DNA of 64,000 nucleotides from Pseudo-nitzschia pungens (lineage: Eukaryota > Bacillariophyta > Bacillariophyceae > Bacillariales > Bacillariaceae), in assembly GCA_037355855.1 (NCBI GenBank), contig CM074758.1:6297001-6361000 (forward strand). Direction: 5' to 3'. This document shows, piece by piece, positions 4,001 to 31,889 of the stretch. The translations under genes and the position numbers were made by a program. Numbering within the stretch: the stretch's first letter is position 1; each line of letters opens with the position of its first letter. The notes below the pieces were generated by a model that worked only from the letters and a program-made list of their open reading frames with translations, had not been told where the DNA came from and did no database searches.

Positions 4001-4576
4001 ACCAGATTATATAAGACTATCTCAGCTCGCTTCTACGCAGACAACCTGTCCAACTTATGCAAGTCCTACATTTGCCCTGATGATTGCATCCAATACAAGA
4101 GCAGGCAAGCTAAATATGGGAAGCTTCCTCCCAAAGAAGCCCCGGTATCGCCCTTCGATGAAGTCCACGTTGATCTTATAGGCCCTTGGAAGATCACTGC
4201 TCAAAACAAGACCTACAACTTTAAGGCCCTCACCTGTATTGATCCAGTTACCAACTTACTTTATCTGCCATTAACTTCCAATCTATTGGCACTGAAACAG
4301 CTTAGGCAGCAAGGAATCAACAAAGCGCTGCTTCGGGATAACGCCAAGAGGATAGAACATACCTTCCGAATCAATGACAAGGTGTGGTTGCAGGAACCGG
4401 ATCCAGACAAGCTACAGCCTAGAAGAACAGGCCCCTTCAGTATCATACAAGTGAATGACAATGGTACAGTTAAACTTCAGAAAGCCCCTTCAGTAGCAGA
4501 AACAGTGAACATCCGGAAGCTGACCCCTTACAAAGAACCGGAGTCGGAGTCGACGGCCATTCACTGGGCATCGTAA
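1040..4576 (+). pseudogene. Ty3/gypsy-like pol (protease, RT, RNase H, eroded integrase)
   Basis: Domains occur in Ty3/gypsy order. The aspartic protease has LLDSGSSGTLI (about 1665-1700) and DLILGRDFL. The reverse transcriptase runs about 2270-2900 with RWVSDFRELN, LPMGVKVSP and the catalytic YIDDIGIW. RNase H starts at FELYTDASDLQLGAA (about 3220). The integrase follows with a GHCG...CPDDC zinc region and VHVDLIGPW (first catalytic Asp). A single TGA at 3380-3382 interrupts RNase H, and the frame continues unchanged at KMLLGGV. In the integrase the sequence jumps from the first Asp block straight to the C-terminal GPF-type domain (RRTGPFSII), so the second Asp and the Glu are deleted. The copy is therefore not autonomous. 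It ends 24 bp before an LTR. Confidence 0.85.
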
Positions 4577-4600
4577 GATTCGTCTAATCATGAGGCACTA

Positions 4601-4861
4601 TGTGACATGCTAGCGTAGCGAGCATGAATCACGATTAAATAATTAACCGAATCCCACATACGAGCTGACCTGTGTTTGAATACAAATATTCAAACTGTAC
4701 GCCGGGCGCTCCAGCAATGCATGTGTGCTGTTATTCAAATATGAGCACGGCACGCGTTTGTATATTCAAACGTTCACATGAAAATCGTAACGCTCGCTTA
4801 AGAGTTGAAACTTTAGTCACAATTTAATACTACTCCAACTTTTCTACCTTAGAGTGTAACA
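4601..4861 (+). repeat. LTR of 261 bp (3' LTR of the gypsy copy)
   Basis: The block starts TGTGACATGC and ends GTGTAACA, so it has the TG...CA ends of an LTR, and it lies just downstream of the integrase stop. A clearly homologous copy with the same start and internal landmarks (GTTTGAATACAAATATTCAA, CGCTCGCTTAAGAGT) lies at 48141-48409. There it is followed by a gag start, which supports the LTR reading. Confidence 0.8.
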
Positions 4862-4993
4862 GCCACTTCTACTACAACTTTTATTTGGTCGAGAGAAACG
4901 GTATCAAAGTCAAGTCCCAATGACTTATTATGCAATACATCAAACCACAACAACAGTTCTTCATCCTTCATCCGCATGGCATGGCACTGGTGG
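4862..4993. other. short spacer, nothing recognised
   Basis: This is the spacer between the LTR and the 3' end of the next minus-strand gene. No motif was recognised. Confidence 0.4.
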
Positions 4994-6487
4994 TCATAGA
5001 AGAGAAGAAACTGTTCGTCTGACCAATCCGAAAATAAATCTCTTTTTTCCTTTAGGATTTTTTTTTAAAATAGCATCGGGGGAGAGTCTGATACGACCAA
5101 AATGCCGAAGCTGGTATTCTGAACAACTGTGGGTGTAGAAAAGTCCATCCCTTTCTTTGCAGGAGTTGTTAATGAACCATCGGCCAGCTTTGATTAATTC
5201 CTTACCAATCAATTTTCTTTTTGCGTCAAACCCTGGACGAATCAGAAATGTCATTAATGGACCATCCGTTCGCCTATATCCATCTGCGTTGAGTTTTGAT
5301 TCACTTGGTAATGGGATGACTTCATTGAATGCCGCCGTAAAGTGAATGCAAGAGGAAAATGTCTCGTATTGTGACTCGTCTGCGAAGGTGCTGCATAACT
5401 GAGCTATTTTCGTGTGCCTCGCGAGAAGTTCAACCTTTCGTAGAACGGCGTCATCCTTAAAGTTTGGGATGCTCTCGGCCCTTGTAGACTGTGTTTGCTT
5501 CAATCTCTTTTTCTTCCAGGCTTCGGGGTCATCGTTATCTTCGCTTTCATCATCAGTTTGAGGCGCAAATTCACTATCGTCGTCATCGTCGTCGTCGTCG
5601 TCAGAATGACTATTTTTCTTTTGTTCTTCTTCACCGGAATCGACGGAATCGAAATGACTATTTTGCTTTTGTTCTTCGTGACCGGAATCGACGGCATTAT
5701 CTTCGACGGAAACTTCTTCTTCGGCAGGATGTTGTAGGGAATCACTTGGTTCAACGGCATCTTGTTCTGGTAGTTCTCTACCAACTAGATTGGAATATAA
5801 TTCTCTATCAACTCGATTGGAATATAATTGGAAAAAAGAATCGAGCAATTGAGATCTGCTAATCAGGGGTGAAGGAGAATCTTCTTGGACTGAAACTTCT
5901 TCTTCATCGGAAACTACTTCTTCGTTGGAACCTTCTTCTTCATCGGAAACTTCATCTTCGTCGGAAACTTCATCTTCATTGGAACCGTCTTCTTCATTGG
6001 AACCGTCTTCTTCGTTGGAACCGTCTTCTTCGTTGGAACAATCTTCTTCATTGGAACCGTCTTCTTCGTTGGAACCCTCTTCTTCGTTGGAACCGTCTTC
6101 TTCGTTGGAACCGTCATCTTCGTTGGAACCTTCATCTTCGACGGCATATTGTTCTTCTTCGTTGGGGTTGGAATTGTTGCCTTCAATGGCATAATCTTTG
6201 ACGGGAACTTCTTGTTCGACTGGTTGTTCGACATCATCTTCGGCTTCGGAAGAATCACTGGGTTCGACGGAATCATTTTCTCCTTCTGCTACATTACGAG
6301 CTTCCTCCCAAAAAGTTTGGTAATAAGAATCAAGAATAGACAAGCGGTGGTTCCGTTCTTCGTGAGTGGGAAAAGAAGGAGATCTGCTACTCGGCGGTGA
6401 AGGGGATCTGTTACTTGGAGGTGAGTTTGTGCATCGTGAGGGACGGGAGGACTTTCTTGCTGTTAGTTTCCTGTGACGTTTCACCAT
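4994..6487 (-). CDS. acidic-repeat protein, paralogue of the gene at 26593
   Basis: The product is about 497 residues. The start ATG at 6487 (MVKRHRK) is preferred over the longer open frame beginning at 6562, because the paralogue at 26593 also starts M-x-RHKK. After a basic, Ser/Pro-rich N-terminus comes a long acidic region with about a dozen copies of GSNEED-like hexapeptides and an aspartate run near 5580-5605. The C-terminal third matches the 26593 protein: LMTFLIRPGFDAKR...LIKAGRWFINNS against LTFLVGPGFNAYR...LIDAGNWFVKNS, each followed by an F-x-T segment. I do not recognise the family. Sharing this domain with a gene inside a large DNA transposon suggests it is transposon cargo or a captured copy. 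The frame is intact. Confidence 0.6.
   Translation of the reverse strand: MVKRHRKLTARKSSRPSRCTNSPPSNRSPSPPSSRSPSFPTHEERNHRLSILDSYYQTFWEEARNVAEGENDSVEPSDSSEAEDDVEQPVEQEVPVKDYAIEGNNSNPNEEEQYAVEDEGSNEDDGSNEEDGSNEEEGSNEEDGSNEEDCSNEEDGSNEEDGSNEEDGSNEDEVSDEDEVSDEEEGSNEEVVSDEEEVSVQEDSPSPLISRSQLLDSFFQLYSNRVDRELYSNLVGRELPEQDAVEPSDSLQHPAEEEVSVEDNAVDSGHEEQKQNSHFDSVDSGEEEQKKNSHSDDDDDDDDDSEFAPQTDDESEDNDDPEAWKKKRLKQTQSTRAESIPNFKDDAVLRKVELLARHTKIAQLCSTFADESQYETFSSCIHFTAAFNEVIPLPSESKLNADGYRRTDGPLMTFLIRPGFDAKRKLIGKELIKAGRWFINNSCKERDGLFYTHSCSEYQLRHFGRIRLSPDAILKKNPKGKKRFIFGLVRRTVSSLL
5920..6135 (-). repeat. coding 18-bp tandem repeats (SNEEDG units)
   Basis: Imperfect 18-bp units of the type CTTCTTCGTTGGAACCGT (plus-strand view) repeat about a dozen times and encode GSNEED hexapeptides inside the 4994-6487 gene. 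Unit length is a multiple of three, so copy number can change without breaking the frame. Confidence 0.8.
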
Positions 6488-9196: not shown

Positions 9197-10376
9197 TTAA
9201 GAACTAACATTATCAAAGAAGTCGTTCGCCGTTTCATTTGGAATCAAGTCATGGGAAAAGAACCCTTTGGTCTCACTCATGAAGGTGTTGAGGATTGTAT
9301 TGATCTGTACTCTCGACGTCTGATAGTTGTATAAGAGCATTGCAAGATGGAGTATGACCTTCCTCTCTCCACTATATTCTAAGGACATGTTGTCTTTCAG
9401 TCAAGGAAATCCACCCTGGATCTGTCTCATCCCCCACTCGGAGAGTTGGCGGCAACTCGTTGCAGCATTGTTGAGTACCACGTCGTGTGGCGTGTCAGGA
9501 TCTTGTTGTCCACTCTTGATAAGGTAGTCTTTGCTTTGTTTGTGAAAAGCTGAGTCGACCACTACCCTTACATTGAAATCATCGAACACCTTCTCCATCT
9601 TGTCGTATAGGCCATAGTCAGATATGGTACTATCATGCCAGCATCCGGGTCCATTCAATATAGCTCCCCGGATCTTTCCATCCAGTGCAAATAGAAGAAC
9701 CGAGTTAATGAAAGTTCCAGTAGTCTATCCATTGTAGAATTTGTTCTGTATAATCCAGTTACACGATTTCTCGAATGGAAGTTTAAGTCCATCACAGGCG
9801 CCCCACACCCTGTACTCCCCTAAGACCGGATATTTTGCAGCAAGGGCTTCAATGTATGTCTCAACCTCCTCAGCAGTTGGCAACCTAATTTCTGCAAGAG
9901 GATGTGTTTGCAGTGCTGCAAGGAGGATCCTACGAGCGAATCGGATCCATTTGTACATGGGAGAAGCAGTTGCACCAAAAGCCCAGCCTATCCCTCTTGC
10001 CGCTGATCCTCTGGTTCGGAACCAATACAACAGGAGTCCAAGACAACCGGTTGCGTCAAGTTCCCTTTTTCTTCCTGTTTTCCTCTTCATCTTCCTAATA
10101 ATTCCAGTGTCGGTGTCATATGTATAAGTATCATACAAAGGTTGAAACAAACCAAGCATCTCGTCGAAGACTTCATGGTTTACTCCACAGCAATTCAAAA
10201 GCGCTTGCTCGTTGCCGGATCTAAACATGGAGAGGAAGGGGGAAAGATTATATCTTCTAATTGCAATTCGTGGGGTTCTGCGATCTCTAAACCTTCTATC
10301 TTCAATCGATAAATGTGGATCGTTGTAATCGGGACATTCGTCCCAGAGGTAGTAGCACAGTAGCTCCAGAGACATG
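9197..10376 (-). pseudogene. PIF/Harbinger transposase with two in-frame stops
   Basis: From ATG 10376 one frame runs to the stop at 9197, broken only by two single stop codons. The DDE nuclease motifs are visible. WGACDGLKLPF carries the first Asp, NGPGCWHDSTIS and VVVDSAFH carry the second Asp region, and RQLSEWGMRQIQGGFP carries the Glu. The N-terminal half has the helical RFRDRRTPRI...NCCGVNHEVFDEM region typical of the family. The first stop (TAG, 9725-9727) follows FYNG, where the family usually has Trp. The second (TGA, 9401-9403) follows GGFP, where Arg is expected. Both look like single-base changes, so the copy died recently. I found no convincing terminal inverted repeats. Confidence 0.85.
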
Positions 10377-16544: not shown

Positions 16545-18315
16545 TCAGAAGTGGCCCTGTATCTGCCCCTGCCCTGGGAGGTGCTCACAATCCAGCCAGT
16601 AGAAGTTTTGGAGAATATTCTGTTGGTGGATGGAGACAAAAACCAAGGCCAAAGAGAAGCTGTCTGGGGAGAGAGCCAATGCCCAAGGTGAAAAGAAGGA
16701 GCTAATGCCCTGTCTGCAGGGGGGGGCGGGGCAAGGGGGAAGAAAACAGGTCTGAAGCGCCTTGACCCATAGGCGCTGAGCTGCTGGAGGCCAAGATGGA
16801 GGACATCTAGGCCAGTCAAGATGATCTCTCAAGTGGTTGGAGGATGCCAGCTGGAAAGCCATGGGGGTAAGCCTTGTCCCATCTGGAGTACAAATATCAG
16901 CAAGGGAAATAGCCTTGAGGGACATGCGCATGTGATTCAAGAGGGACAAGTCAGCACCTCTGAAGCCAGCGTTGACAAAGGCTTGCATGAGATAACAGTC
17001 ATTGGAACGGAGCAGAGGGAGATCTGGGAAGTCTTCAACCAAGCTCACAGGGTGATCAGAAAAGAACTTCCACACATGTTTGTACCAGCAAGGAGTGACG
17101 TATGAAGCAAAAGGATGATAGGGTGTGACACCAAGATGGAGAGGAAATCCAAGTTCAAGCCAGAGAGACTCAGCAGTTAGCCTGAGAATCCTACCAGTTT
17201 GTGAGGACCTGACAGATTCCTGAAAGAGAGTGGCAATATGACTAAACTCTTGGAGGAGGTATGGATGGATGAAACCAAAGCCTTGATAGAGGGAAGGACC
17301 ATAGAATACATGTCTAGGAAATGTCCGCGACATCCCTGCTTTGTTCAGCACAGGAACAAGAGCTGGGTGAATTATCTTAGTCCAGGTGGCCTCATCAAGT
17401 TGCGTGACAGGCATGGGGTATTCAACAGACTTCATGAACGAATACTTGAAGGTGTAGAGGGATGCTCGCTTCTCACACTTGGAAGCCTTGAGTTGAGAGC
17501 CAAAAGACTGAGACTGGGACTTCATGTGAGCAATCTGTGCTTCCTCATTGCCATCCATGGAGATAAAAACCCCAAGGGTCTTGTCAGCATGGTCAACTTC
17601 AAAACGATCCAGGGTAGCTCGATTGCCATTTTTGTCAGCAACAGAGAAGTCACCGGGCATGTCAGCAATTGAGCGATAGTCCCAACCGGATCCATTCCAT
17701 TTGAAATCAATCAAATAACAGAAGGATTTGGCAGGTTCAATAGCACCACCAGTGGCAATAATGCCACCAGCCCATCGGTCAAGAGCTTCCTGAAAGTCAA
17801 CAGCCAATTCCTCACCAGATGTCGAGGAATCAGAGCCAGCACAAAACAAATCTGTGTCATCCACAAAGGCAAAACCCACAAGAGAAACCAGTTGCAGTGA
17901 CAATGAAGTGATAAGATGGACACCATGCCCAGCCTGTTGCATCATTCGGAAGACAATTGTGGACACCAAAGCCCAAAGAGTTGGACCAATACCATTGCCT
18001 TGGCCACAACCACTGAGAGGAACAGGTTCATCACCATACACAGGGCCTGACCGACCAAAACCAGTTTTGATATGGTGCTTGGCATGTTGCAGAGTAGACA
18101 GGAGAACCTCACACACATGTGCAGGAACCCCAAAGCTCTGGAGAGTGAGACCTGCAATGGCATCATTCATAGCAACAGCACCGGATCTGTGCTTCTGCCG
18201 CAACACATCACATATGAGCTTCTTGTTCAGGCAGGTGTTGATGGCCTTGTGGTGTTTCCTGCTACCATGTTGATCAGCAGCCACTGCATTGGCACGTTCA
18301 GCATGGGCAAGAATG
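16545..18315 (-). pseudogene. LINE A ORF2: reverse transcriptase domain
   Basis: The frame is open from the edge of the inserted transposon (18315) to 16545. Reverse transcriptase landmarks in order are ADQHGSRKHHKAI, SGAVAMNDA, GCGQGNGIGP and the catalytic GFAFVDDTDLF. Between MNDA and AGLTLQSFG about ten residues usual for this family, with the C-x-D-R core after motif A, appear to be missing in frame. That would inactivate the enzyme. The open frame extends five codons beyond 18330 into transposon sequence by chance. Removing the transposon joins this frame exactly to 31890. Confidence 0.85.
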
Positions 18316-18339
18316 CGTCCGAAAACTGCTTCGCGACCC
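18316..18339 (+). repeat. left terminal inverted repeat
   Basis: It begins CGTCCGAAAACTG and ends in TTCGCGACCC. It pairs with 31864-31887 on the opposite strand with a single mismatch at position 14. It is followed by four further TCGCGACC words up to 18372, probable subterminal transposase sites. Confidence 0.85.
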
Positions 18340-18715
18340 ATCGCGACCAATCGCGACCGGATCGCGACCCAATCGCAACTTGTCTAAAAAAAATTCGACC
18401 CCAATTTTTTATTTCACAACCTTTTTTCCATTATTCTCCACTTTTTTCCATTATTCTCAACCACATTTCTCCCTTTTCTCAACTCCCCCAACGTGTCGAC
18501 GGAAATGTTCTGTTCTAGACCCTGACATTCAGTCCCTCTTCACATTTTCATTCCATTTTACACATTTGACACACTTGACTCAACACAACAAATAATTTTT
18601 AATCCAATTTACTTCAATCACACCAAAGTGTTTTGTCACGCACCTTTGTGAACTTTTTTTTTCAGTGGTGTCACATCACATACCGGGACATCGCATCACA
18701 AAAACACACACCACC

Positions 18716-21700
18716 ATGCCGAAAGCTTCCTCGGACCCAAGGCACTTTGCCAATGAGCCCAGAATACCCAAGACATTCCATTGTCGCAACTGCATTGCCT
18801 CCGGAAGAAGAAGAAAATCAAAATCCTTCAAGGGATACAAACAAGAATCGAGCCACTTTCACACCTACCGATACGTATCTCAAGGCCTCTCCAGGCATCT
18901 CTATTCCAACAGTGATTGCCAAACTTATTATGTTAAGAACGATCTTATGGATTTTATTTCTTCTGCGAAAGCCGAAGTCACCCTCCCTTTGGTCCGACAC
19001 ACACCATCACAGTATGGACTGACAATGACACAGAATGGACCACAAATCCCCCCCTCCCTTGCCCCAAATGACACCGCCGCAACAACTTCTATCCATACCT
19101 CACTCAATCCTCAAGTGATCGCCAATGTACTCATCCCACCCATGGACAGACAGGCAATCGAATCGCATATGGCTGAAAATGAGGAACAAATGAATGCAAT
19201 CGATTCCGATGTTGATGCACCTGACAATTTTGATGCCAGTTCTGACACCGAAATATCTGATTCCGAAATCATGAAAAGCACCACCATTTCCATAAACGAA
19301 AGAGAGGAAACATTCCGGAACCGCACTCTGTTCCCACCCCGTCCGGAACTTATTGCCGAAATCAACCTCCTCAACATTATATCGCAGCACAAGCTACCTC
19401 TTTCCACTTATCAAACCATTTTCAACTGGGCGAAAGACAGCAACAATCTTCCCGGTTTTGATTTCAAGGTTACACCAACAAGAAAACGTGACGCCATTTT
19501 TCAAGAAATAAAAAAAAATCTTGGCATATCTTCCGAACCCAAATTTGAGCCCAAAATTGTGAATTGGCTTCCCGACAACAAACCCACCCAAATCTACGTC
19601 CGCTCTTTTCTGGATGCTTTGTATTCCCTTCTGTCGAACCCAGATTTAATGATGGAAGAAAATCTGTCATTCCCCAACAGCAATACCCCCTTGTCACCAG
19701 AGCATTTCCCGGTTCGAACTGATTCTTGTCCCATCACTGAGTTGCACCACGGATCATGGTGGTCGGATTCCTGGAGATCCCTCTGCATAGAAGAAAATTC
19801 TGAAATCCTTGTTCCCATCATTTTTTACATGGATGGAATTAGCTTGGATGCGCATGGAAGACTATCACTGACTCCACTCAACATGACCCTAGGCATATTC
19901 AACATTGAAACCAGGAAAAGGCCGGAAGCATGGACAACAATCTATTTTCATCCTGACTCAGATTTGGAGAGCATCCACCATTCAAGAAAACCATCTCCAA
20001 AAGAATCAATCCAAAACCTCCATAATGCCCTAGAAGTGGCGCTCCGATCTTTCAAAGAAGCATGCGAGTCCACCCATGAAGGCATCCAATGGGATTTTCT
20101 CCCTTATGCCAGCCAATTGTGGCAAGTCAAAATGAAATTTGCAATAGCCTATGTCATCGGTGACACAGAACTGCATGATAAATTATGTGGCAAATATGGT
20201 TCCCGGTCGGGGGGTGTACAAAAGCTTTGCCGACACTGTAACTGTTCCACCAAGGACATAAATATTCCATCAGCACAACAAACAGCCTCTCTTTGGGTCC
20301 CATCAGATTTTCATACATTTCCAGACTCAGATGCCACCACCACCAAGGAATATTTCAACAATATTTCTCACCACCAAATCAGAAATGCATTCCACAGTCT
20401 CAACTTTGGTACCAATGTAAACAACATCCACCTAGCCACGCCCGGTGAATGCCTCCACATGCACCAGCTCGGGTGTGCCAAACGAGAGGTAGAATCCCTG
20501 GAGCAACTGATGAAGGGTTCAATACCATGCCCGTATGCTGATCACCTAAAGACCGGTGTTTCCACAGTAAATACAATTGGGCATGTCTCTCAAAAATATG
20601 GAGCCCTTCTCTCAAGGCAGTCGGATCGTGACTTTCCCAGAACTAAATTCAGCTCCAATCTTCTATCTGTCACTAAAAAGGAGGGGCACGATTACAGTGG
20701 TATGCTGATTTCGATTCTTCTAACATTGGTTTCTGAATCCGGCATTGCAATTTTGAGGGACAACTCATTTGTGAAGAAGCACATTGATGTTATCGAACAA
20801 ATCATCTCTATGGAAGAATTTCTCAAACACGGCCGTCCAACCACAAAGTGCATCAAAAATCTTCCCAAAACCATCATTCATTTCCTCAACTCTATCAATG
20901 GCACCTGCCTTAGGAAGGGAATGGGAACAAAATTGATAAAAAATCACCTCTACTTTCACATTCCGAAGTACATCAGTCTGTGGGGTCCAACATTAGGTTT
21001 CGATTCTGCATATAGTGAAAGTCACCACAAGACAGAAATAAAAGCACCGTCCAAAAATACTCAACAAAATGCCGCAACCTTAGTCCATCAGACAACCCAT
21101 CGGAAAGAAGAAGCATCTCTCCTTCGACTCGCAACCTCTCATTACAAGTTGAAGAAAGTGGGTGGTGATCCGAAAGTCATATCCCGCAGGCCATCCCAGT
21201 ATGGTGCCCGTTTCACCATTTTTCAGGATGGAACCAAAAGTTCGATGCGATGGCTCAGACAACGGAACTACAACAAACCATTTCATTCATCAATTGTACT
21301 AGATTTTGTTTGCAACTCTGTCCTTCCTTTGCTGAATGACACATCCAGCATATTTGGGTTCACCGAACACAACAGATGGGATTCTGTGAATCGTGTCAAC
21401 TACCTGTTCCGATGTCACCCCTCATACAGGTCTGATTCAGGCCAAGTTAACAGTGTATGGTTTGACTGGGCAATGTTTGCAGTTGATGACAACACTGAAA
21501 TCCCCTGTCAAATGCTGTGTTTTCTGCACGTGAAAGATTTGAAACAACCCACATCGGCTGTGAATGGATACAATGTCGATTCCGATGGCATCTACGCGGT
21601 TGTCAGAAAGTTTAGAGAGGATCCGAGGTCTACATCATCTCACTTTGTAAAAAGTGGCTATCTCGACAATACTTTATATTTATTTAACACTGACACTATT

Positions 21701-21907
21701 CTTTCCGAACTGGCAGTTGTTCCTGAACTGGACGAGAATGCGGAACCAGTAAACAATGGTCTGTGGTTGGTTGTTCACAATCGGTTGCAATGGCTCGAAT
21801 TCTTCGAAAAGAGGAATAATTCTATGACATATACTACCTACGAGAGCCTCTACTCCGCTTGTCCTGTACAACGAGAGGAATCAGACAACACCGGCATGGC
21901 GGAATGA
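18716..21907 (+). CDS. CACTA/Plavaka-like transposase
   Basis: This is an intact frame of 1063 residues from ATG 18716 (a further in-frame ATG lies at 18665). An N-terminal zinc-finger-like segment, HCRNC (about residues 22-26) then QGLSRHLYSNSDC (about 60-72), resembles the finger of Plavaka-type transposases. The presumed catalytic region has YMDGISLD (about residue 373, first Asp candidate). It continues with IGDTELHDKLCGKYGSR...LCRHCNC (about 480-510), a block widespread in protist transposases of this group, and ATPGECLHMHQLG (about 575). No internal stops or frameshifts are seen, so it may be functional. It lies 340 bp inside the left terminal repeat and reads inward. A distant relative such as another DDE family cannot be excluded without a profile search. 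Confidence 0.75.
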   Translation: MPKASSDPRHFANEPRIPKTFHCRNCIASGRRRKSKSFKGYKQESSHFHTYRYVSQGLSRHLYSNSDCQTYYVKNDLMDFISSAKAEVTLPLVRHTPSQYGLTMTQNGPQIPPSLAPNDTAATTSIHTSLNPQVIANVLIPPMDRQAIESHMAENEEQMNAIDSDVDAPDNFDASSDTEISDSEIMKSTTISINEREETFRNRTLFPPRPELIAEINLLNIISQHKLPLSTYQTIFNWAKDSNNLPGFDFKVTPTRKRDAIFQEIKKNLGISSEPKFEPKIVNWLPDNKPTQIYVRSFLDALYSLLSNPDLMMEENLSFPNSNTPLSPEHFPVRTDSCPITELHHGSWWSDSWRSLCIEENSEILVPIIFYMDGISLDAHGRLSLTPLNMTLGIFNIETRKRPEAWTTIYFHPDSDLESIHHSRKPSPKESIQNLHNALEVALRSFKEACESTHEGIQWDFLPYASQLWQVKMKFAIAYVIGDTELHDKLCGKYGSRSGGVQKLCRHCNCSTKDINIPSAQQTASLWVPSDFHTFPDSDATTTKEYFNNISHHQIRNAFHSLNFGTNVNNIHLATPGECLHMHQLGCAKREVESLEQLMKGSIPCPYADHLKTGVSTVNTIGHVSQKYGALLSRQSDRDFPRTKFSSNLLSVTKKEGHDYSGMLISILLTLVSESGIAILRDNSFVKKHIDVIEQIISMEEFLKHGRPTTKCIKNLPKTIIHFLNSINGTCLRKGMGTKLIKNHLYFHIPKYISLWGPTLGFDSAYSESHHKTEIKAPSKNTQQNAATLVHQTTHRKEEASLLRLATSHYKLKKVGGDPKVISRRPSQYGARFTIFQDGTKSSMRWLRQRNYNKPFHSSIVLDFVCNSVLPLLNDTSSIFGFTEHNRWDSVNRVNYLFRCHPSYRSDSGQVNSVWFDWAMFAVDDNTEIPCQMLCFLHVKDLKQPTSAVNGYNVDSDGIYAVVRKFREDPRSTSSHFVKSGYLDNTLYLFNTDTILSELAVVPELDENAEPVNNGLWLVVHNRLQWLEFFEKRNNSMTYTTYESLYSACPVQREESDNTGMAE

Positions 21908-21969
21908 ACCCTTCCACAATACTAGGCACGTAACTAAATAATAAAAAATCTTTGTATCATTTGCTCAGT

Positions 21970-22555
21970 TGCGAATCGATCCATCGCATATTCCGATCCG
22001 TATCAAAATCAATTGATCCGTCGCTCCTTTTCGGAACAACCGAAAATCGATCCGTCGCTCCTTTCTGGAACAACCGAAAATCAATCGATCCGTTGCTCCA
22101 TTTCATAACATCCAAAAATCAATCGATCCGTCGCTCCATTTCATAACATCCGAAAATCGATCCGTCGTTCCATTTCATAACGAACCGAGCAACCGAACGA
22201 TCCTTCGCTCTTTTCTGCAACAACCGATCGATCGATCCGTCGCTCCAAATCGATCCGTTGCTCCGAATCGATCCGTCGCTTCATTGCATCGTTCCATTTC
22301 ATAACATCCGAAAATCGATCGATCGATCCGTCGCTCCTTTCTGGAACAACCAAAAATCAATCGATCGATCCGTCGCTCCTTTCTGGAACAACCGAAAATC
22401 AATCGATCGATCCGTCGTTCCTTTCTGGAACATCCGAAAATCAATCGATCTGTCGCTCCTTTCTGGAACAACCAAAACTCTATCGATCGATCGATCGCTT
22501 CTTTCTGGAACAAACCCAAATCGATCGATCCTTCGATCTTCTATTTGAATCAGTC
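21970..22555. repeat. minisatellite of about 30-45-bp CGATCCGTCGCTCC units
   Basis: Units of the form GATCCGTCGCTCC-TTTCTGGAACA-ACCGAAAATCAATC recur more than ten times with variable length and small changes. It sits between the convergent transposase and RING-like genes. Open frames on both strands here are repeat artefacts. Confidence 0.85.
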
Positions 22556-24508
22556 GTTCCGCCAAAACTCTGAAACCTCCTCTTCCTCCGTGTCTGATTC
22601 TGATGGTAGTGAAGCCGAACCGTAGTCAATTAAATTTGGATGAACATAAGAAACTTCTGAACCCGAATCTGAATTATCCATGTCCGCATCCGAATCCGAA
22701 TTAGATGATTCAGATTCATCATCCTCTCCTGCATTATCATCATCATCATTCTCAGCATCTGCATCCTCGTCATCATCTGAAGGAGGAGCGTTGCCTCCAG
22801 CATTAGCATTGGCTGCAGCGATTGCAGCATTTGCTTGGTCCAAAGCATCCTGTGCATTGGCTGTCTCTTCCTGAGCTGCCAAGACCGCAGCTTGAGTTAA
22901 TATTGCCTCGTCCCGTGCCTCATTCCTCTCTTCCTGAGTGGCATTTGGATTTGCGTCCACTGCCATCCAACGCTCAAACGCTGCTTGCCACTCTGCTTGT
23001 CTCTGAGCCTCCACTGCGGCTGCCTGTTCATGATTCACTTCTGCGGCTCGTCTCCATCTTCTTTCTCTACCCCAGTCCAACAAGCAGAACACAAATGTTT
23101 CGGGACCGCGACCCCCCCTTCCCATGCCATATTTGGTGTAAGAATTGGTGTGCTTAGTTGCAAAACCGATCTTGTTCTCTATACTGTAAACAGTCTCGCC
23201 ATCCTGTTTACCAAATGAGTCATAATGAATGCCGACTGGATGCTGGACAAGGGTCGTCGAATTGAGGGAAGAAAACTGATACAAAATGTCACCGATCTCC
23301 TGCCTTCTTGCCATTGCTATAGCTTTCCTGTGGTTTCTCAACTCCCGATCCACTGCAAGTGGCACCACATTCAGACCATTGACCATGTTGCTTAATTGTC
23401 TCAGCAGCAAGGCACTCACTATCTTCGCCTCAGTGAATGGTTGAAAGAATTTATAATCAGAAAACATATCCTCTGTGATAGGCCCAATCTGCCCCCCAAA
23501 CTGGGGGTTGCAATACACAAAGTGAACAGCCTTCCCTTGCCTGTTTATGTAAAAAACATGAATTGTGTGCCGGTCTGGAACAACAAATGCCCCCCGTCCG
23601 GACCTTGGTGTCACAATTGGGTTGTCGAGCATCTGAAAGAGTGCTCTAGTTGGTCCTCTGTAGACACCACTGCTGCCACCACTTCTCATCTGTTCTATGT
23701 TGTTATTTGCAGTCATGGACTCAACTTTCTTAAACAACGAGTGAACGTCATTCTGGGTCATCTGGAGTCGATGGCTTCCGTGATAGAATCTTGCCAACAA
23801 CAGGTTGCACTTCTGCTTCCCTTCTTGTTCATTTTTGGGACCGAATGATCCAACAATAAGTGTCACATGGCATTTCTTCAACCTGTCACGACACGTGAAC
23901 ACTCTTGATTGTTTAATTCTTTCCATTGTGTACTCTGGCGTCTCCTTTATCTTGTTCTTGCACATCGTTCCGTGAATTATGATCAGTTGCACGATGTAAG
24001 TTCTTGTTCTGCTGGGATCCACTATATCAGAGCACTCAATTTTCTTAACTTCTGTTTTAACCGTGTCCGTGAGCTTCTTTGCTGTTATTCCTGATTCTGC
24101 TATCTGACGTGCAAGCTCATATCCCACCACAAAGTGTTTCACTCCTGGCAGTTCAGGTTCCTTGCCCAATCCATGGCAGTCAACAATGTTTTCTGAATTG
24201 AAAGGAGTGTCAATCAGCAAGTCATACTCTGGTAGGACAAGGAACCCATCATACTTTAATCGAACCGCGCGACTCGCAACATCAATGAAGTGCCGATGGG
24301 ACCTCACCACTTGCTCCTTTTGGGCATAGTAGATACATCCATGACAAGTGGATACTACCCCGATATTGTTTTCTAGCGATTGTTTCATCTGCTGTAGCAC
24401 CGAGGGCAGTGTAGTCTTCTCCTTGTCCATTCGGTTGAACAGTAGTTGCAGACATCTTCTGCAAGCAAAATTGCCACAGGACGTGCATGTTATGCCGTCG
24501 TCCGTCAT
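22550..24508 (-). CDS. cargo gene 1: Cys-cluster protein with acidic tail
   Basis: This is an intact 652-residue frame from ATG 24508. The N-terminus has CTSCGNFACRRC and, some 40 residues on, CHGCIYY, a RING/treble-clef-like zinc site. One more Cys (SCP) lies just upstream in frame beyond the ATG, so the true start may be in an upstream exon. The middle (residues about 80-420) is globular and unrecognised, with FVVPDRHTIHVFYINRQGK and VHFVYCNPQFGG, which look like beta strands. Then come a Gln/Ala-rich helical segment and a long Asp/Glu/Ser tail (about 22570-22760). It converges on the transposase across a minisatellite. Function unknown. It could be a partner of transposition or a captured host gene. 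Confidence 0.65.
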   Translation of the reverse strand: MTDDGITCTSCGNFACRRCLQLLFNRMDKEKTTLPSVLQQMKQSLENNIGVVSTCHGCIYYAQKEQVVRSHRHFIDVASRAVRLKYDGFLVLPEYDLLIDTPFNSENIVDCHGLGKEPELPGVKHFVVGYELARQIAESGITAKKLTDTVKTEVKKIECSDIVDPSRTRTYIVQLIIIHGTMCKNKIKETPEYTMERIKQSRVFTCRDRLKKCHVTLIVGSFGPKNEQEGKQKCNLLLARFYHGSHRLQMTQNDVHSLFKKVESMTANNNIEQMRSGGSSGVYRGPTRALFQMLDNPIVTPRSGRGAFVVPDRHTIHVFYINRQGKAVHFVYCNPQFGGQIGPITEDMFSDYKFFQPFTEAKIVSALLLRQLSNMVNGLNVVPLAVDRELRNHRKAIAMARRQEIGDILYQFSSLNSTTLVQHPVGIHYDSFGKQDGETVYSIENKIGFATKHTNSYTKYGMGRGGRGPETFVFCLLDWGRERRWRRAAEVNHEQAAAVEAQRQAEWQAAFERWMAVDANPNATQEERNEARDEAILTQAAVLAAQEETANAQDALDQANAAIAAANANAGGNAPPSDDDEDADAENDDDDNAGEDDESESSNSDSDADMDNSDSGSEVSYVHPNLIDYGSASLPSESDTEEEEVSEFWRND

Positions 24509-24734
24509 CGGACAGCTTGTGGTTCCTTTTGCAGTTCATTTTCCTTTCTGTGTCAGTGTTGTGACCGAACCCAGAACACAGTGGCTTGGTTGGCACAAGG
24601 TGCTCTCGCTCAAGATTTTCTGTTGGATCCTTCTCTTGCATCTACCACCCCTTATTTCTGCGTTGGTCTCCTCAGTGTCACCAATCGTTCGCCTGCTGGA
24701 ACGTGTCATTGTGGTGATCCTTTCTGCCGATTTC

Positions 24735-25080
24735 GTTCGATCCGTCGCTCCTGTACTCAACAACCGAGAATCGTACGGGTATTTCGTTGTCGCTCCTGTA
24801 CTCGACAACCAAAAATCGTACAGGTATTTCGTTCGATCCGTATTTCGTTCGATCCGTCGCTCCTGTATGGTATTTCGTTCGATCCGTCGCTCCTGTACTC
24901 AACAACCGAAAATCGTAGGCGTCGCTCCTGTAGTCAACAACCGAAAATTGTAGGCGTCACTCCTGTACTCAGCAACCGAAAATAGTAGGCGTCGCTCCTG
25001 TACTCAACAACGAAAATCGTAGGGGGTGTAGGCATCGCTCCTGTAGGCGTCGCTCCTGTAATCAACAACCGATCCGTCGC
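24735..25080. repeat. minisatellite of CGTCGCTCCTGTACTCAACAAC units
   Basis: About ten imperfect units built from GTCGCTCCTGTACTCAACAA and CCGAAAATCGTAGG, some with an inserted TATTTCGTTCGATCC. They share GTCGCTCC and CAACCGAAAATC words with the array at 21970-22555, so the two arrays flanking cargo gene 1 are related. Confidence 0.8.
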
Positions 25081-25194
25081 CTGCAACAAGAGAGAATGAA
25101 AAAATTTTGGTGTTAGTTATGATTCTAGAGGAAACAGACAGCAGTACTTGATAAAAGAAAAAAGAAGAAAGTATTTGTATTAAACTATGTCCCA

Positions 25195-25580
25195 TCGTTC
25201 GTCTGTGAAGCGATCGCACCGTGCGTCGTCGTCGTCCCTCTCAGCACCAATCGATCGATCGTTCGTCTGTGAAGCGATCGCACCGTGCGTCGTCGTCGTC
25301 CCTCTCAGCACCAATCGATCGATTGTACCCGGCGTCATTCCTGTCCGAAGCGATCGTACCCGCCGTCGTCCCTGTCCAAAGCGATCGTACCTTCCTCTTT
25401 ATCGTCGCCGTCGCTCCCCTATGGAAAGACGAAAGTAAAAACAAGAACAAACATCCTGTTAGAAGCGATCGTAGCAATCGTACCCCCGTCGTCACTCTCT
25501 GGAGCGATCGTACCTTCGTCGCGTTGTCCCTGTCTGGAGCGATCGTACCTTCGACGTCGTCGTCTTCCCTCTGCGCACCG
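25195..25580. repeat. duplicated 64-bp unit and GCGATCGTACC repeats
   Basis: A unit of about 64 bp starting TCGTTCGTCTGTGAAGCGAT occurs twice (from about 25196 and 25260). It is followed by several GAAGCGATCGTACC words up to 25550. No credible coding sequence was seen. Confidence 0.75.
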
Positions 25581-26592
25581 ATCGGTCGTGAGTTTCGTCT
25601 TCGTTTTCGTTGTTTTCAATATCTGTACCTCGTATATCTGGGTAAGCCAGGTAGTTCCAGGACTTCAACACACCCGACCTCTGTGATATGAATCAGACAA
25701 CAGAGCAGAAAGCAAGAGCGGCCGTTCTCAAGCTCCTCACAGCATGTGTTATTTTCAAAAGAGATGGTCCCCGTGCCTGATGGCTAGGTTAAACTGGACC
25801 GGCCAGAATATTCCGATGCAAGAATTGAAACGAAAATGAAAATGAAAATTATGACACATCCCATGAGGGAGATGTGGGGCGGAAAATTCACCGAAGAAAA
25901 TGACGTAAGAAAAAAAGACAGAAATGTATGTACGATGCGGTACTAAGTATACATGCTGCAAAAAAAATGACATGGCGCTGTACACTGTACGCGTATGTTA
26001 CTAGTACAAAATTTTTGGCGCGAAGTAGCATCATACACATCCTACTATACTGTACTACTAGTGTCTTCCCCACAATGAGCCAATCAAAAAATTCCTTACC
26101 AATGAGCCAATCAAAAAATTCCTTACGAATGAGCCAATCAAAAAATTAGAAAATAATTTTAAGTGGAAGGAGTAGCGTCGTTTGAATTTGAAGTGGAAGG
26201 AGTAGCTTCGTTTACGGTTTAAAACTGATGTCAATGTGTAAAGGCCCATTTCGAGCAAAGGCCCACGGTGGGGGAAATGGAAGTTCATCACACATCACAC
26301 GATCGTGACAACAAGTGACAACAATTCCATGAACAGTTGGGGATGAGCTCAACCAGTTGAACCATTGCCTATTGCATTTCGAAAGGTTTTAAGATGAATC
26401 ATCGTTTCGAAAGGTTTTAAGATGAATCATCGTTTCGAAAGGTTTTAAGATGAATCATCACAATTCAATCGGCTTGGGGACGGTCGAATGTATTTTTCAC
26501 ACATTGTTCGACGCATCGTTCCCTTCCACAACAATCAAATCGGTCTCTATCTTTAACAATCAATTCAACAATCAGGGAATACCTGCAGATAC
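25581..26592. other. non-coding DNA between cargo genes 1 and 2 with two small arrays
   Basis: Three tandem copies of GAGCCAATCAAAAAATTCCT(TAC) lie at about 26076-26150. Three copies of a 29-bp unit with TTTCGAAAGGTTTTAAGATG lie at about 26375-26460. A duplicated AAGTGGAAGGAGTAGC occurs at 26160-26210. No gene was recognised. The 26340-26590 part is the likely promoter region of the next gene. Confidence 0.55.
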
Positions 26593-27891
26593 ATGATGGC
26601 AAGGCACAAAAAGAAAAAAGGCACTACACCTCCTGAGTCACAACGCCATACAAATAGAAGAAGATCTACTCGTACCGAAGAGGAAACACCAGCACCACGA
26701 TCTGAAAGTGAGTCTGAGTCTTCAGCAGATGGATGGCCTATACCTCCAAGTCTGCCATCCAAAAATCCATTACCAGACTGGCCCATAGCTGTGCTTCAGC
26801 TCTACGAACAGGAGCAACAACATGGAGATTCTAGCAATTTGGAGGATTCGACTGCCACTCCCGTCGGTTCCAACAATTCGGACCATTCCACTGCCCAAAC
26901 CATGGACGACACTACCAACAGTGATGCTGCCAATAACAACAGTTCAAATAACTCGGATCATTCCACGGCCCCAACCATGGGTGACAATTCGAACCCTACT
27001 AATGGTACCAATGGGGACTATAATAATCCCAAGTTCCGAAAGCAGCAGAGGTTGAACCGGAAAATAAATCAAAGGGCCGAATCTGTCATTGAGATGAAAG
27101 ACAGTACTTCCATGAAGAAGTTTAAAATGGTGGCAGCAAACACAAAAGTACTGCAGACACTCACCACCTTTGAGGATGAAGAAAAACACCTGGAATGTCC
27201 TGGCTCTATGCATGGTTTATTCTGCTACGACGAAGTTGTTGAGAAACCACATTTAAAACCAACTGCCACAACCGAGAATGAGGACTATAAGAGAGAGGAT
27301 AAGCCAAAACTAACATTCCTTGTGGGTCCAGGTTTTAATGCCTATCGACAATCATTTGGAGAACGCTTGATCGATGCCGGCAATTGGTTCGTGAAAAATT
27401 CATTTGATCCTAAGAAACCAGAAACGCGCGTTGGACCTTTTCACACAGAAAATGTAGGAGAACATTACAGGGCAGTTTTTGGTGCTAGAGGGCGAGGTTC
27501 AGATGAGCAAGTGGAAGAATCGGATGGAAGAATTGAAGAGGCAGATCAACTTTTGACAGAGGAACAAATCGAAACCATTATTAGTGGTGAAACTAATGGT
27601 ATGACAATGCAACAAAGATTCCACTTCCGTGGTATGGTATATACTCAGATCACAGATGACAACCCGACCGCTACTACTGTGTCACAAAGGAGTTTGGAAA
27701 AGTACATCCGAAACGTGAAACAAGCCATCAAAGGGAAGAAGAAGAAGGAAAAAAAAAGGGGGGGGGAAGAAGGGCAAGAAGAGCTCAACATCAAGCCTTC
27801 CGTTCGACCAAATGAAGAAGCCACCACCAGGATCGGATCCGGGAAAAAAGCCACCACCAGGATCGAATCCGGGAAAAAAGCCACCACCTAA
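26593..27891 (+). CDS. cargo gene 2: paralogue of the 4994-6487 protein
   Basis: This is an intact frame of 432 residues (ATG at 26593 and again at 26596). It has a basic N-terminus, then a Ser/Asn/Asp-rich low-complexity region with repeated NNSDHSTA blocks. The shared domain at about residues 235-300 contains LTFLVGPGFNAYR, GERLIDAGNWFVKNS and GPFHTENVGEHYRAVFG, which align with the C-terminal domain of the minus-strand gene at 4994-6487. A Lys-rich stretch (KGKKKKEKKRGG) and two copies of ATTRIGSGKK-type repeats close the protein. The family is unrecognised. Presence of the same domain inside and outside this transposon argues for a transposon-associated gene family. Confidence 0.6.
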   Translation: MMARHKKKKGTTPPESQRHTNRRRSTRTEEETPAPRSESESESSADGWPIPPSLPSKNPLPDWPIAVLQLYEQEQQHGDSSNLEDSTATPVGSNNSDHSTAQTMDDTTNSDAANNNSSNNSDHSTAPTMGDNSNPTNGTNGDYNNPKFRKQQRLNRKINQRAESVIEMKDSTSMKKFKMVAANTKVLQTLTTFEDEEKHLECPGSMHGLFCYDEVVEKPHLKPTATTENEDYKREDKPKLTFLVGPGFNAYRQSFGERLIDAGNWFVKNSFDPKKPETRVGPFHTENVGEHYRAVFGARGRGSDEQVEESDGRIEEADQLLTEEQIETIISGETNGMTMQQRFHFRGMVYTQITDDNPTATTVSQRSLEKYIRNVKQAIKGKKKKEKKRGGEEGQEELNIKPSVRPNEEATTRIGSGKKATTRIESGKKATT

Positions 27892-28015
27892 GTAAGACAC
27901 AGGATGGGTATCAAAACATTGTAAAAATGGATCAAATAATTTAGGAATTAGTAGTAACAATTATGATAATATTATAATAAATCAATAAAAATGTACTCTT
28001 ACAACCCAAAAAAAC

Positions 28016-28930
28016 AATAAACTTCTTACTACCAGGAGTTATAGTATGATGGATGTAAGTTCTGCTTTCTCAGTAAAATTCCCAGCACCAGAGTTTACAC
28101 AACAGACTGTGCATATTTCCTGTGTATGGGTCAGCACACTGTCACAAATTTTTTCTATTCCACACTGAATAATGGTGTGTACTATATGCATCTATTAGAA
28201 AAGTAAATAGGAATAAACTTCTTGCTACCAATTATATTATGAATGTAAGAAGTTCTGATTTGTCAGAAAAATTCTCAGGAACCGAGTTTACACCACAGAA
28301 AAGGCATATTTGCTGTGTATGGGTCGCACTAACTATCATTTGTTGTATTCCACGCTGAATAATGGTCAGTATATGCATCTATTAGAATATTAAAAATGAA
28401 TAAACTTGCTACCAATTATATTATGGATGTAAGTTCTGCTTTCTCAGTAAAATTCCCAGCACCGGAGTTTACACAACAGAATGTGCATATTTCCTGTGTA
28501 TGGGTCACACTGTCACAAAATTTTTTTGTATTCCACACTGAATAATGGTGAGTATATGCATCTATTAGAATAGTAAATAGGAGGAATAAACTTCTTGCTA
28601 CCAATTATATTATGAATGTAAGTTCTGATTTGTCAGAAAAATTCTCAGTTTCCGAGTTTACACCACAGAAAATGCATATTTGCTGTGTAGGGGTCGCACT
28701 AACTATCATTTGTTGTATTCCACGCTGAATAATGGTCAGTATATGCATCTATTAGAATAGTAAAAAGGAATAAACTTGCTACCAATTATATTTTGGATGT
28801 GACACCTGGTGTCTGGGGACCATACCCAGTACACCACAGAATGTGCATATTTCCTGTCTATGGGTCACAGTTTCCGGCATTTTTTTGTGTTCTATTGTTA
28901 AAAATGCACAGATACACAAGTGGCTATGTA
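28016..28930. repeat. about 188-bp satellite in five units of two alternating types
   Basis: Units begin near 28016, 28210, 28398, 28585 and 28769 (each with AATAAACTT...GCTACCAATTATATTATG or a variant). Units 1, 3 and 5 carry or derive from TTCTGCTTTCTCAGTAAAATTCCCAGCAC, while units 2 and 4 carry TTCTGATTTGTCAGAAAAATTCTCAG. The array is therefore a roughly 376-bp dimer repeated about two and a half times, the last unit being diverged. No coding content. Confidence 0.85.
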
Positions 28931-29604
28931 AGATAATGGTGATTATTTGGTTACTAGTATGTCCAAGAATATGAAATAGAATAAACCAGGATGAAAAATT
29001 TGACAAAAAAAGTAGTAGTCCAGTCCCTTGGCAAAGAAAAATATATTTCTTGTGAAGGACTCCATCCTACCACATCTGACGCTTATGGTCATAAGGGTAC
29101 CACAGAGACTGTACGATCCTTTTGTTATAGCCATGGATATTGTCATTATATATGTGAATCTATCACAGCCAGTACTATCACTCGTACAACTCATACTTGA
29201 ACTGGTGGTGCTGCTGGTATACTTGTGTAGTAGTAGTACTACTAGTAATTTTTGCCTACTGTACAGCAGGGAATAGTAGAGCCAACAATACAATCAGTAG
29301 TGAATATGGGTACAGTAGAGAAACAATACAATCAGTAGTGAATATGGGTACAGTAGAGAATGAACAGAGATGTGCACAGGTGGATAAAAAAAAAATTATG
29401 GCGCGGGTGGGAATCCTCTTAAACATTTGGCCACGTCACCTACAATTTCCATAGTGAAGTGTATGCCATTACAAGTTGCGGGGATGGTGAGAGGAAAATG
29501 ATTAACAGGTTTTTTGTTAGTAGTGAAAAAACTGTGTTCACAATTTTATGGCTTCACATATTTTTTTTACTTCATATTTTTTTTTACTTCCGACGCCCGA
29601 AAAA
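28931..29604. other. non-coding region upstream of cargo gene 3
   Basis: No gene was recognised. A 41-bp unit with AATACAATCAGTAGTGAATA and GGGTACAGTAGAGAA is duplicated in tandem at about 29285-29365. A run of T lies just before the proposed ATG at 29605. Confidence 0.45.
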
Positions 29605-31196
29605 ATGCCTACCATATATGATGAGTATCAGCAAATAGAAAAGAAAGCAGATTGCAATGCACCAAGAAAGAATCGAAGTGGAAAAATTGTATCCAATGCT
29701 AATACAGGTGAGGATACTACTGCTAGTATTACCCCTACGAAATCGAACCCAAAGACAAGTCGAAAACTACCACCCACCTCAGGTGGTGCTGATGAAAAAA
29801 ATAAAAGAACCAAGAACAACCCGACCGCGGTTTTCGTTGGTACCACACCACCAACCAACAAACCCGCCCCACCGGGTCTTGTTACACCAAGAACTTGTAC
29901 GACCGGTACCAAAATAACACCAAGACCCACATACGAAGCATTGCTACAACAGCTAAAAGAGAGCCAGCAGAAAGTAGCTTCTTTAGAGAGGGATGTGACA
30001 ACACTGCAGAAGGATACAAAAAAAGAAGAGCCCACGCTGACGGTAACTACAACAGGGAAGAAGCCAAAGCCACAGATGGTACGAACCGTAAGTGAAGCAA
30101 AATTAGAGATAACGAAGCCGCATTCGGATAAACTTAAGGAACATCAAAAAGACGCGGGTTTGGAAGCACAGTTGACACGGCACATAAGAAATAGTTGGTT
30201 TCGTGGCTTGAAGTTTATTGTGGATGAGAATAAGGTCAAATCAATTTTGAAGAAAGCGATTGCGTCCCAAGCTGTGGTTCCACCCCATGGTATTTCATTT
30301 GAAATTTTTTATGGTTTTAACAGAAGGTTGGTGTACAAGGGTGTTTCAAATCTGCGGCACAATGCTCAAACTTTGGCTAGAAAACACTATCTCGGTACGT
30401 GCTTACTAAGTGAATACATTGGTTGCTATTACTGCTTGGTGGAGATTGATGGTATATCCCCTGCTACTCTAACACTTTCTACTGCTGCTGTGTAATCCTA
30501 CTAGAGGACACACTCGATCGCGAAGGCATTGTGCCCGATTTGTTCCCGGGTAAAGTGGAGATTGTGATGCAGGAGAGTACTAGTAGTAATGGAACTAGTA
30601 GAAAGAAGCTGGGACTGAACCCAGAGTACAGAAGGTATGACAATAACAGTGAAAATGATGATTTTTATTACTTTGTGACTCGGATTCTATCAAGCGTCTC
30701 TCCAATAGAGAGGGGCTACAATAAAAGAAAGACGACATGTTTGATGAGTGAAATATTCACAGAAAGCGATGAAGCATTTGCATTGATGATGATTCATAAT
30801 GAGTATGATGTTTGGGTGAATCATGTTGAGCAAAAAAGGAACGGTGGTGGCAGGATTGTGAGAAGGAGGAAGAAAAAGAAATTTTGTGACCAATACAGTG
30901 GAGAGGAGCAATCATGGTCGAAGGAAGGTCTAGCACTGTTCAATAACTTGTGCAGGGAGATTGTGGTGCTGAGGAACGATCCGAGAACGGGTAGAGAGTG
31001 TGAGGAAAGATTGAGAGAGAGGCTCCGTCGCGAGAGTGAAAACAATGACAACAACAACAGTGCGTTCGGTGAGGACTGGGTGCAGGAGGAAGAAGTTACT
31101 GAATACATTAGTCCAGAGCTACAAGCTTTGCTAGATGTAAATGAATATGAGGAGGACTTTACTGGCAGTAACGAGAACGGGTTGGAAAGTCTTTAA
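29605..31196 (+). CDS. cargo gene 3: two-exon protein of unknown function
   Basis: Two adjacent open frames in different phases are best joined by a 53-bp GT-AG intron at 30452-30504. Exon 1 (29605-30451) then reads on as EIDEDTLDREG into exon 2 (30505-31196), total 1539 nt, 512 residues. An alternative in-frame ATG lies at 29548. The first part is basic with Pro/Thr-rich low complexity and a Gln/Glu/Lys coiled-coil segment (LLQQLKESQQKVASLERDV). The centre has a globular block with WFRGLKFIVDE and FEIFYGFNRRLVYKG. Exon 2 is charged, with EIFTESDEAFALMMIHNEYDVW, and ends acidic. I do not recognise the family. It lies about 0.7 kb from the right terminal repeat. Confidence 0.55.
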
Positions 31197-31863
31197 AAAT
31201 CTTTTGAAACAAAATTTGTGTGGTGTGCATGAGGACGAAGACAATCGAAGCGAAGAGCAACGACGACTTCAGGGAGGATGACGAGGGCGGTCGGAGCGAC
31301 TTCTTAATTTGTGTGTGAGTGTGTGAGAAAATTGAACAGAGAATAAACAATTATTACAGTAGTATCAATATTTATCAAAAGAAAGACTTATATTTTGCAT
31401 CATAGTGTTTCAAAAATTTTTTCATTGGGGTCGCGATTCCTGTAATTCGGGTAATAATTGTGATTTTCCTGATGAATTTCTTGAGGGGTGTGATGGGAAA
31501 TACTTTGTGTCGGGATGAGAAATCAATTTTTGAGAGTGAATTTCTGCAACAGTCTCATAATATATAATGTTGGTAGGGTCGGTAATAATGAGTCAGATTG
31601 AAAAAAAATTGGGGGAAGGGGGGGATTATTTTGAGAAAACAAATATTTTTTTTTTAAATGTTGATTAATTTGATTAAGTGACTGAAGAAAAAAAATTGAG
31701 TCTTAAAAAAAAGTGGGTCGAGTATGAATTTTATTTTTTTTCTCGTAATTGAGGTAGTTACTGGGTCGCGATTGGGGTTGCGAATCGCAAGAGAGCTAGG
31801 AATCGAGCTACGTCAAAATGAGCCAGGAATAAATCGCGACCCCCCTAAATAAATTCTTGGGAG
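31197..31863. other. right subterminal region of the DNA transposon
   Basis: Non-coding. GGGTCGCGATT-type words appear at about 31427, 31763 and 31848, in inverted orientation to the TCGCGACC words near the left end, plus one in the same orientation (31828). They are candidate transposase binding sites. A/T runs dominate the rest. Confidence 0.55.
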
Positions 31864-31887
31864 GGGTCGCGAACCAGTTTTCGGACG
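31864..31887 (-). repeat. right terminal inverted repeat
   Basis: It ends CAGTTTTCGGACG on the plus strand and pairs with 18316-18339 with one mismatch. The flanking TG (31888-31889) repeats 18314-18315. Confidence 0.85.
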
Positions 31888-31889
31888 TG

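Follow-up and report, generated by a model that had tools for sequence, protein, structure and literature searches.

Descriptions of DNA transposons usually deal only with the transposase. The Spm/En elements of the CACTA group, which encode TnpA and TnpD, combine a transposase of a clade related to the one treated here with subterminal repeats and a helper protein, and the VANDAL elements belong to the Mutator type. For Plavaka/CMCT transposons, Kojima 2025 (PMC12730594) gives transposases in which a C(2)C and an H(3-4)H motif lie between the second D and the last E, target duplications of 2 bp (range 2-5 bp), and termini of TGT..ACA in PlavakaA and CATCA..TGATG in PlavakaB. In Arabidopsis, VANC is described as a VANDAL-encoded protein that causes loss of methylation, and its targets as often being tandem repeats that vary between related elements (PMC5735166, PMC10398659). 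The subject here is a transposon at positions 18316-31887 of a 64,000-bp stretch of the Pseudo-nitzschia pungens genome (GenBank assembly GCA_037355855.1, contig CM074758.1, 6,297,001 to 6,361,000 of the forward strand; hereafter the window), in which, as judged by sequence comparison, the genes form two modules, and a two-gene block with its own tandem-repeat arrays has moved between transposon lineages and their transposases. This modular exchange is the surprising and new part, and it goes beyond the first-pass annotation, which was made from the letters of the window and took the segment for a large transposon with an intact transposase and three unknown cargo genes.

The segment 18316..31887 (plus strand, 13,572 bp) is a real, high-copy, multi-gene DNA transposon of the Plavaka type, as its ends, its 2-bp duplication and its empty sites attest. 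The left terminal inverted repeat (18316..18339, plus strand, beginning CGTCC) reads CGTCCGAAAACTGCTTCGCGACCC, the right one (31864..31887, minus strand) is its inverted copy with one mismatch over the 24 bp, and the element is flanked on both sides by TG (18314..18315 and 31888..31889), all of which the annotation had read correctly. It had also held that removal of the element would restore a long interspersed nuclear element (LINE), and the LINE flanks, joined without the element, matched all 40 of the places scored (from 384 candidates) at 97-99% over 122-124 bases; the empty insertion site is therefore present many times. Allowing one mismatch, the 24-bp end was found 392 times in the 66.9-Mb genome (196 per strand), and a reversed control pattern was found nowhere in it, which rules out ends that arose by chance; shuffles of the window likewise gave no chance match. 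The further copies and empty sites that were to be sought with these ends thus exist, and an element unique in the genome is ruled out by the 392 matches. Subterminal repeats, TCGCGACC, occur four times at the left (18331..18376, plus strand; element positions 16, 26, 36 and 47), and another four lie toward the right end, no more than about 475 bp from it.

Ten further regions were selected for matches to the transposase gene (tnp) and to two of the other genes, g2 and g4, within one stretch, and the four-gene content of the elements is therefore partly a product of selection, as the regions were picked for having genes. Together with the window copy they gave 11 elements of 13.6-16.6 kb, divided by their g2 and g3 type into subfamily A (six elements, the window copy among them) and subfamily B (five); nine of the 11 have four left-hand copies of TCGCGACC and two have three. 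The order tnp(+), g2(-), g3(+), g4(+) was constant in all 11, and the recurrence of the three accessory genes between the same ends, which had been set beforehand as a test, held in each of them. Alignments of A with B elements ended at element position 3650 and restarted at 9853, i.e., from about 60 bases past the tnp stop to about 280 bases past g3 (three pairs). Outside this break, synonymous divergence (dS) between the subfamilies was 0.054-0.126 for tnp (six printed pairs) and 0.021-0.070 for g4 (six pairs); inside it, dS was 1.34-1.46 for g2 (four pairs) and 1.35-1.41 for g3 (six pairs), or 1.6-1.8 for g3 in a second alignment. Because of these values and the alignment breaks, the middle of about 6.2-7.6 kb is a block with a separate and far older history. 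The element can be resolved into a core module, made up of the CGTC..GACG ends, the TCGCGACC subterminal repeats, the transposase and g4, and an exchangeable cassette, made up of g2, g3 and the tandem arrays on either side of g2 (array, g2, array, g3; approximate borders 21966..28167 in the window copy).

A second transposase lineage, E, has ends related to those of A and B, CGTCTRATAACTGATTTT, which gave 76 and 70 matches at up to two mismatches and none for a control. Its copy E5 (C5:4914729-4930693) encodes a transposase that shares 57% identity with that of the window, synonymous sites being saturated, yet g2 and g3 are both of the A type, with a dS of 0.061-0.070 for g2 (against elements A4 and A6) and of 0.037 (A4), 0.086 (A6) and 0.192 (A1, the window copy) for g3. 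Taken with the A-B comparison, these values demonstrate, at the level of sequence, that the cassette has been exchanged en bloc between the subfamilies, and into or from the second transposase lineage. E5 itself sits inside a g3 gene of the type found in lineage D (described below), and its flanks read CG and TC, with no exact duplication.

The surroundings of the E transposase were tallied at 21 loci among the matches listed (candidates scored: transposase, 40 of 101; g2, 40 of 73; g3, 30 of 30; g4, 104 of 222; g5, 48 of 48). Downstream lay g4 in 21 of 21; upstream lay g2 and/or g3 in six (five with both, one with a g2 remnant), a different gene, g5, in 14, and the cassette together with g5 in none, and the one locus with neither has a partial transposase. 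As cassette or g5, but never both, was found at these loci, the slot in lineage E holds one of two alternatives, and the recurrence of the three genes, which stood for the A/B family, failed here, 14 of the 21 loci being without g2 and g3. The same 14 loci bear on another reading of g2 and g3, namely that they are transposition proteins proper, i.e., TnpA-like end binders that work together with the transposase, and that they were exchanged only incidentally, when related elements recombined. This reading would suit the richness of g2 in Cys and His, the presence of subterminal repeats, as in Spm elements, and the occurrence of both genes in every A/B element of the chosen regions, but we consider it rather unlikely, given E loci at which the same tnp-g4 pair is accompanied by another gene instead, and a g2-g3 type that does not go along with tnp, where end binders would be expected to track the ends and the transposase.

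The alternative gene, g5, encodes 431 aa (position 4202-5494 of locus L042, C8:9202-10494), and six aligned copies share an invariant H-x-D and a later H. An H-x-D...H pattern is familiar from Fe(II)/2-oxoglutarate enzymes; searches of Pfam and the PDB with g5 gave no profile or structure support for such an enzyme. Scans of viral contigs with g2, g5 and tnp found no relatives. A small gene of 207-231 aa on the minus strand was seen in both E elements that were read, of which one has the cassette and the other lacks it (L040 1675-2367, i.e., C5:4916175-4916867, and L042 2222-2842), and the L042 copy had no match in Pfam. One of the six E loci with cassette genes (C9:2649294 to about 2666000) carries, according to match listings, an A-type left end, an A transposase, g2, g3, an E transposase and an E-type g4; it looks like a hybrid and may be a recombination intermediate.

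Two further lineages place the cassette in other settings. At a locus on contig 11 (the older lineage D) the order is g3, g2, tnp, g4, and g2 is separated from tnp by other sequence; the transposase is split by one stop, its longer open piece being 61% identical, and the element ends searched for at this locus were not found, the four genes being a candidate for one element. Lineage C (L032/L033, C6:4030001-4046500) is likewise older: g2 and g3 are open, the transposase is reduced to its two ends with LINE sequence between them, and of g4 the first 68 residues are left, next to the polymerase frame of a retroelement. The g2 genes of B, C and D are related (dS 0.50-0.68). That the cassette lies behind tnp in A and B and before it in D and E might suggest a small transposon nested within larger ones; this we regard as improbable, since no inverted repeat linked the cassette borders among the 25 longest of 52 in the window element, the borders not having been checked for target duplications.

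In a quick transposase tree of 58 rows, with SH-aLRT as its only support measure, D and E joined each other (99), then the Psemu1 protein P0101 (98) and then the A/B transposases (93); we take the label Psemu1 to be Pseudo-nitzschia multiseries. P0101 (model 43789) and the g4 homologue P0122 (model 43790) directly follow each other in gene number, which suggests that the transposase-g4 pair may be adjacent in Psemu1 too.

The genes themselves differ somewhat from their first description. The annotated span of g2 (22550-24508) is only the part downstream of an in-frame stop; the gene opens at 24709 with MTRS, as in its relatives, and the stop, at 24536-24538, interrupts it after 57 codons, which rules out an intact g2 in the window copy. 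Its product (22550..24709, minus strand) has a cysteine-rich N-terminus and an acidic C-terminus, and its invariant Cys/His positions extend to the one relative that 7296 candidates yielded, a protein from Psemu1 with 36% identity over 57%. The claim of three intact genes held for g3 (26593..27891, plus strand), an open frame for a charged, low-complexity protein of 431 aa with one conserved domain. The third gene, g4, annotated as one stretch from 29605 to 31196, is predicted to consist of two exons (29605..30394 and 30505..31196, plus strand) around a 110-bp GT..AG intron (30395..30504), together encoding 493 aa; the predicted intron keeps its borders and phase in 11 of 11 elements, at lengths of 110-116. 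Among 8000 scored candidates, g4 has at least three relatives, all from Psemu1.

That these genes are passive cargo or captured host genes, as the annotation had allowed, would accord with families that match nothing known and with their few relatives, and it is a poor prospect on the other evidence. For captured host functions no support emerged, the relatives found for g2 and g4 being four predicted Psemu1 proteins (g3 was not searched in this way). For g2 the ratio of nonsynonymous to synonymous divergence (dN/dS) is low across a near-saturated divergence: it was 0.22-0.23 between A and B (four pairs) and 0.23-0.31 when C or D was one of the pair. For tnp it was 0.16-0.20 (six pairs), and the two genes are evidently under purifying selection. 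Frames are mostly open, g2 from its MTRS start in nine of 11 elements, tnp in ten, spliced g4 in all 11, and g3 as a single long frame in ten, one of these with a changed tail. The genes were found, moreover, in each of the lineages A to D and in some E loci. With g2, g3 and g4 recurring in the same order in every A/B element, and with the dS and dN evidence, simple cargo is rejected, and the three genes are not mere passengers.

The arrays on either side of g2 are part of what is exchanged. By repeat search and motif count, array 1 (22005..22530) holds seven copies of the motif GTCGCTCC and array 2 (24744..25584) eight. Each of the six A elements has 16-40 copies of this motif and E5 has 22, but it was absent from the five B elements and from the C and D stretches read. 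A second motif, TCGTCGTC, is abundant in B (34-58 copies), C (34) and D (21), scarce in A (3-9) and absent from E5. The array motif goes with the g2 type and not with the transposase type, which we treat as a lead. The B-type unit is also kept in much shorter copies. Among 100 ends listed of the 392, there were 39 adjacent inward-facing pairs, 26 of them spaced 5-7.5 kb apart, and each of the three 6-kb copies read in sequence contained 14-21 copies of TCGTCGTC and no match to g2, g3 or g4; two of the three (L030 and L031) keep the start of the transposase as an open stretch of about the first 95 residues.

Our preferred reading, held with about as much confidence as doubt, is that of a two-module, Plavaka-type cut-and-paste transposon whose cassette is a regulatory or anti-silencing unit with a DNA- or chromatin-binding g2. 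The transposase, with g4, would perform excision and insertion; g2, with g3, would encode a sequence-specific factor that binds DNA or chromatin at the adjacent arrays and may keep the promoters and ends of the element accessible, whether by anti-silencing or by regulation, much as VANC does for VANDAL elements or TnpA for Spm; and the gene-less 6-kb copies, with their ends and B-type array, would be mobilized in trans.

Several findings weigh against this reading. Two elements have a broken g2, the window copy among them, and searches of g2, g3 and g4 against Pfam, NCBIfam, PHROGs and the PDB gave no known family, structure or function. Evidence of constraint is weaker for the fast-changing g3 (dN/dS about 0.5 between A and B) and weak for g4 (0.36-0.78 at low divergence). 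The 50 kb of the window outside the element contain six copies of TCGTCGTC, alongside one of GTCGCTCC, and an 8.6-kb E copy that is without g2 contains four of TCGTCGTC and none of GTCGCTCC. The array motifs were selected after inspection, and the exchanged segment includes the arrays, which are thereby physically linked to g2, with few truly independent comparisons; the association of motif and g2 is for these two reasons a lead and no proof. Base-by-base reading covered two of the 21 E loci, one with the cassette and one with g5.

A broader, tentative version of the preferred reading is that in the transposons of this genome the slot beside the tnp-g4 core carries interchangeable counter-silencing modules. 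One would be the cassette of g2, g3 and arrays, of which there would be at least two types differing in specificity, and the other g5, which is unrelated to it and may encode an Fe(II)/2-oxoglutarate enzyme, such that a swap of modules would change the escape from silencing and leave the transposition machinery the same. If the block does counter silencing, these elements would provide a natural swap set for testing the co-evolution of mobile elements and host defence in marine algae, and in any case they present several protein families without known fold or function for study.

Among known systems, the closest by transposase is Plavaka. The tnp gene (18716..21907, plus strand) is an open reading frame for 1063 aa, intact as annotated, and its assignment rests on homologues and motif alignment. 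Of 4872 candidates, 125 were homologous at E up to 0.01 (120 listed); many are annotated with PF18759 (Plavaka), P0118 is named a Plavaka transposase (E 7e-63), and those with a named organism among the matches listed are all from diatoms (Cylindrotheca and Pseudo-nitzschia), mostly under the label Psemu1. The window transposase itself had no hit in Pfam, PF18759 included, even with E values of up to 10 allowed; P0001, which is 49% identical to it, scored 24.5 bits against PF18759, just below the cut-off, and the lineage-E transposase scored 31.7 bits (cut-off 26.3). A PDB search with tnp gave no useful match. The CMCT motifs occur in the correct order, the candidate catalytic and zinc residues being D373, D483, C505/C508, H744/H748 and E768; all are invariant in 22 aligned rows except D373, which is nearly so, and the catalytic roles assigned to the particular D and E are putative. 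Exact 2-bp duplications, as in Plavaka, flank all 11 A/B elements (TA in five, AA in two, and TG, GG, CG and TT in one each), the three short copies read, and six of seven lineage-E copies read at their ends.

The likeness to Plavaka therefore lies in the C(2)C and H(3-4)H motifs, the 2-bp duplications and the accessory genes of some families; the difference lies in four genes and in the ends, CGTCC..GGACG in A/B and CGTCT..AGACG in lineage E, which are of neither the PlavakaA nor the PlavakaB form, and it is by these termini, not by a tree, that the element is set apart from a group that Kojima 2025 (PMC12730594) covers in fungi. A literature search limited to open-licence papers found no paper on diatom Plavaka elements. 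The first-pass suggestion of a large Plavaka-like lineage with unusual CGTC..GACG ends that keeps accessory genes was, in these respects, well founded. From Spm/En and other CACTA elements it differs in having no CACTA ends and a 2-bp, not a 3-bp, duplication, and its helper genes are likened to theirs by description.

For the transfer of accessory genes between transposons, the nearest parallel is the TET/JBP-carrying transposons of fungi, in which, according to Kojima 2025 (PMC12730594), an accessory gene has passed between lineages and is thought to counter silencing; here it is a two-gene cassette with repeat arrays of its own, and Pfam found no dioxygenase family in the window proteins. 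The nearest working parallel is VANC of Arabidopsis, where, as in the present element, the gene of an accessory protein is accompanied by non-coding tandem repeats that differ between related elements (PMC5735166, PMC10398659), although function has been shown there and is proposed here, and the two are likened by description, not by sequence. With that difference in mind, g2 and g3 may work by a logic like that of VANC, as a module that helps the element or counters its silencing in a sequence-specific way.

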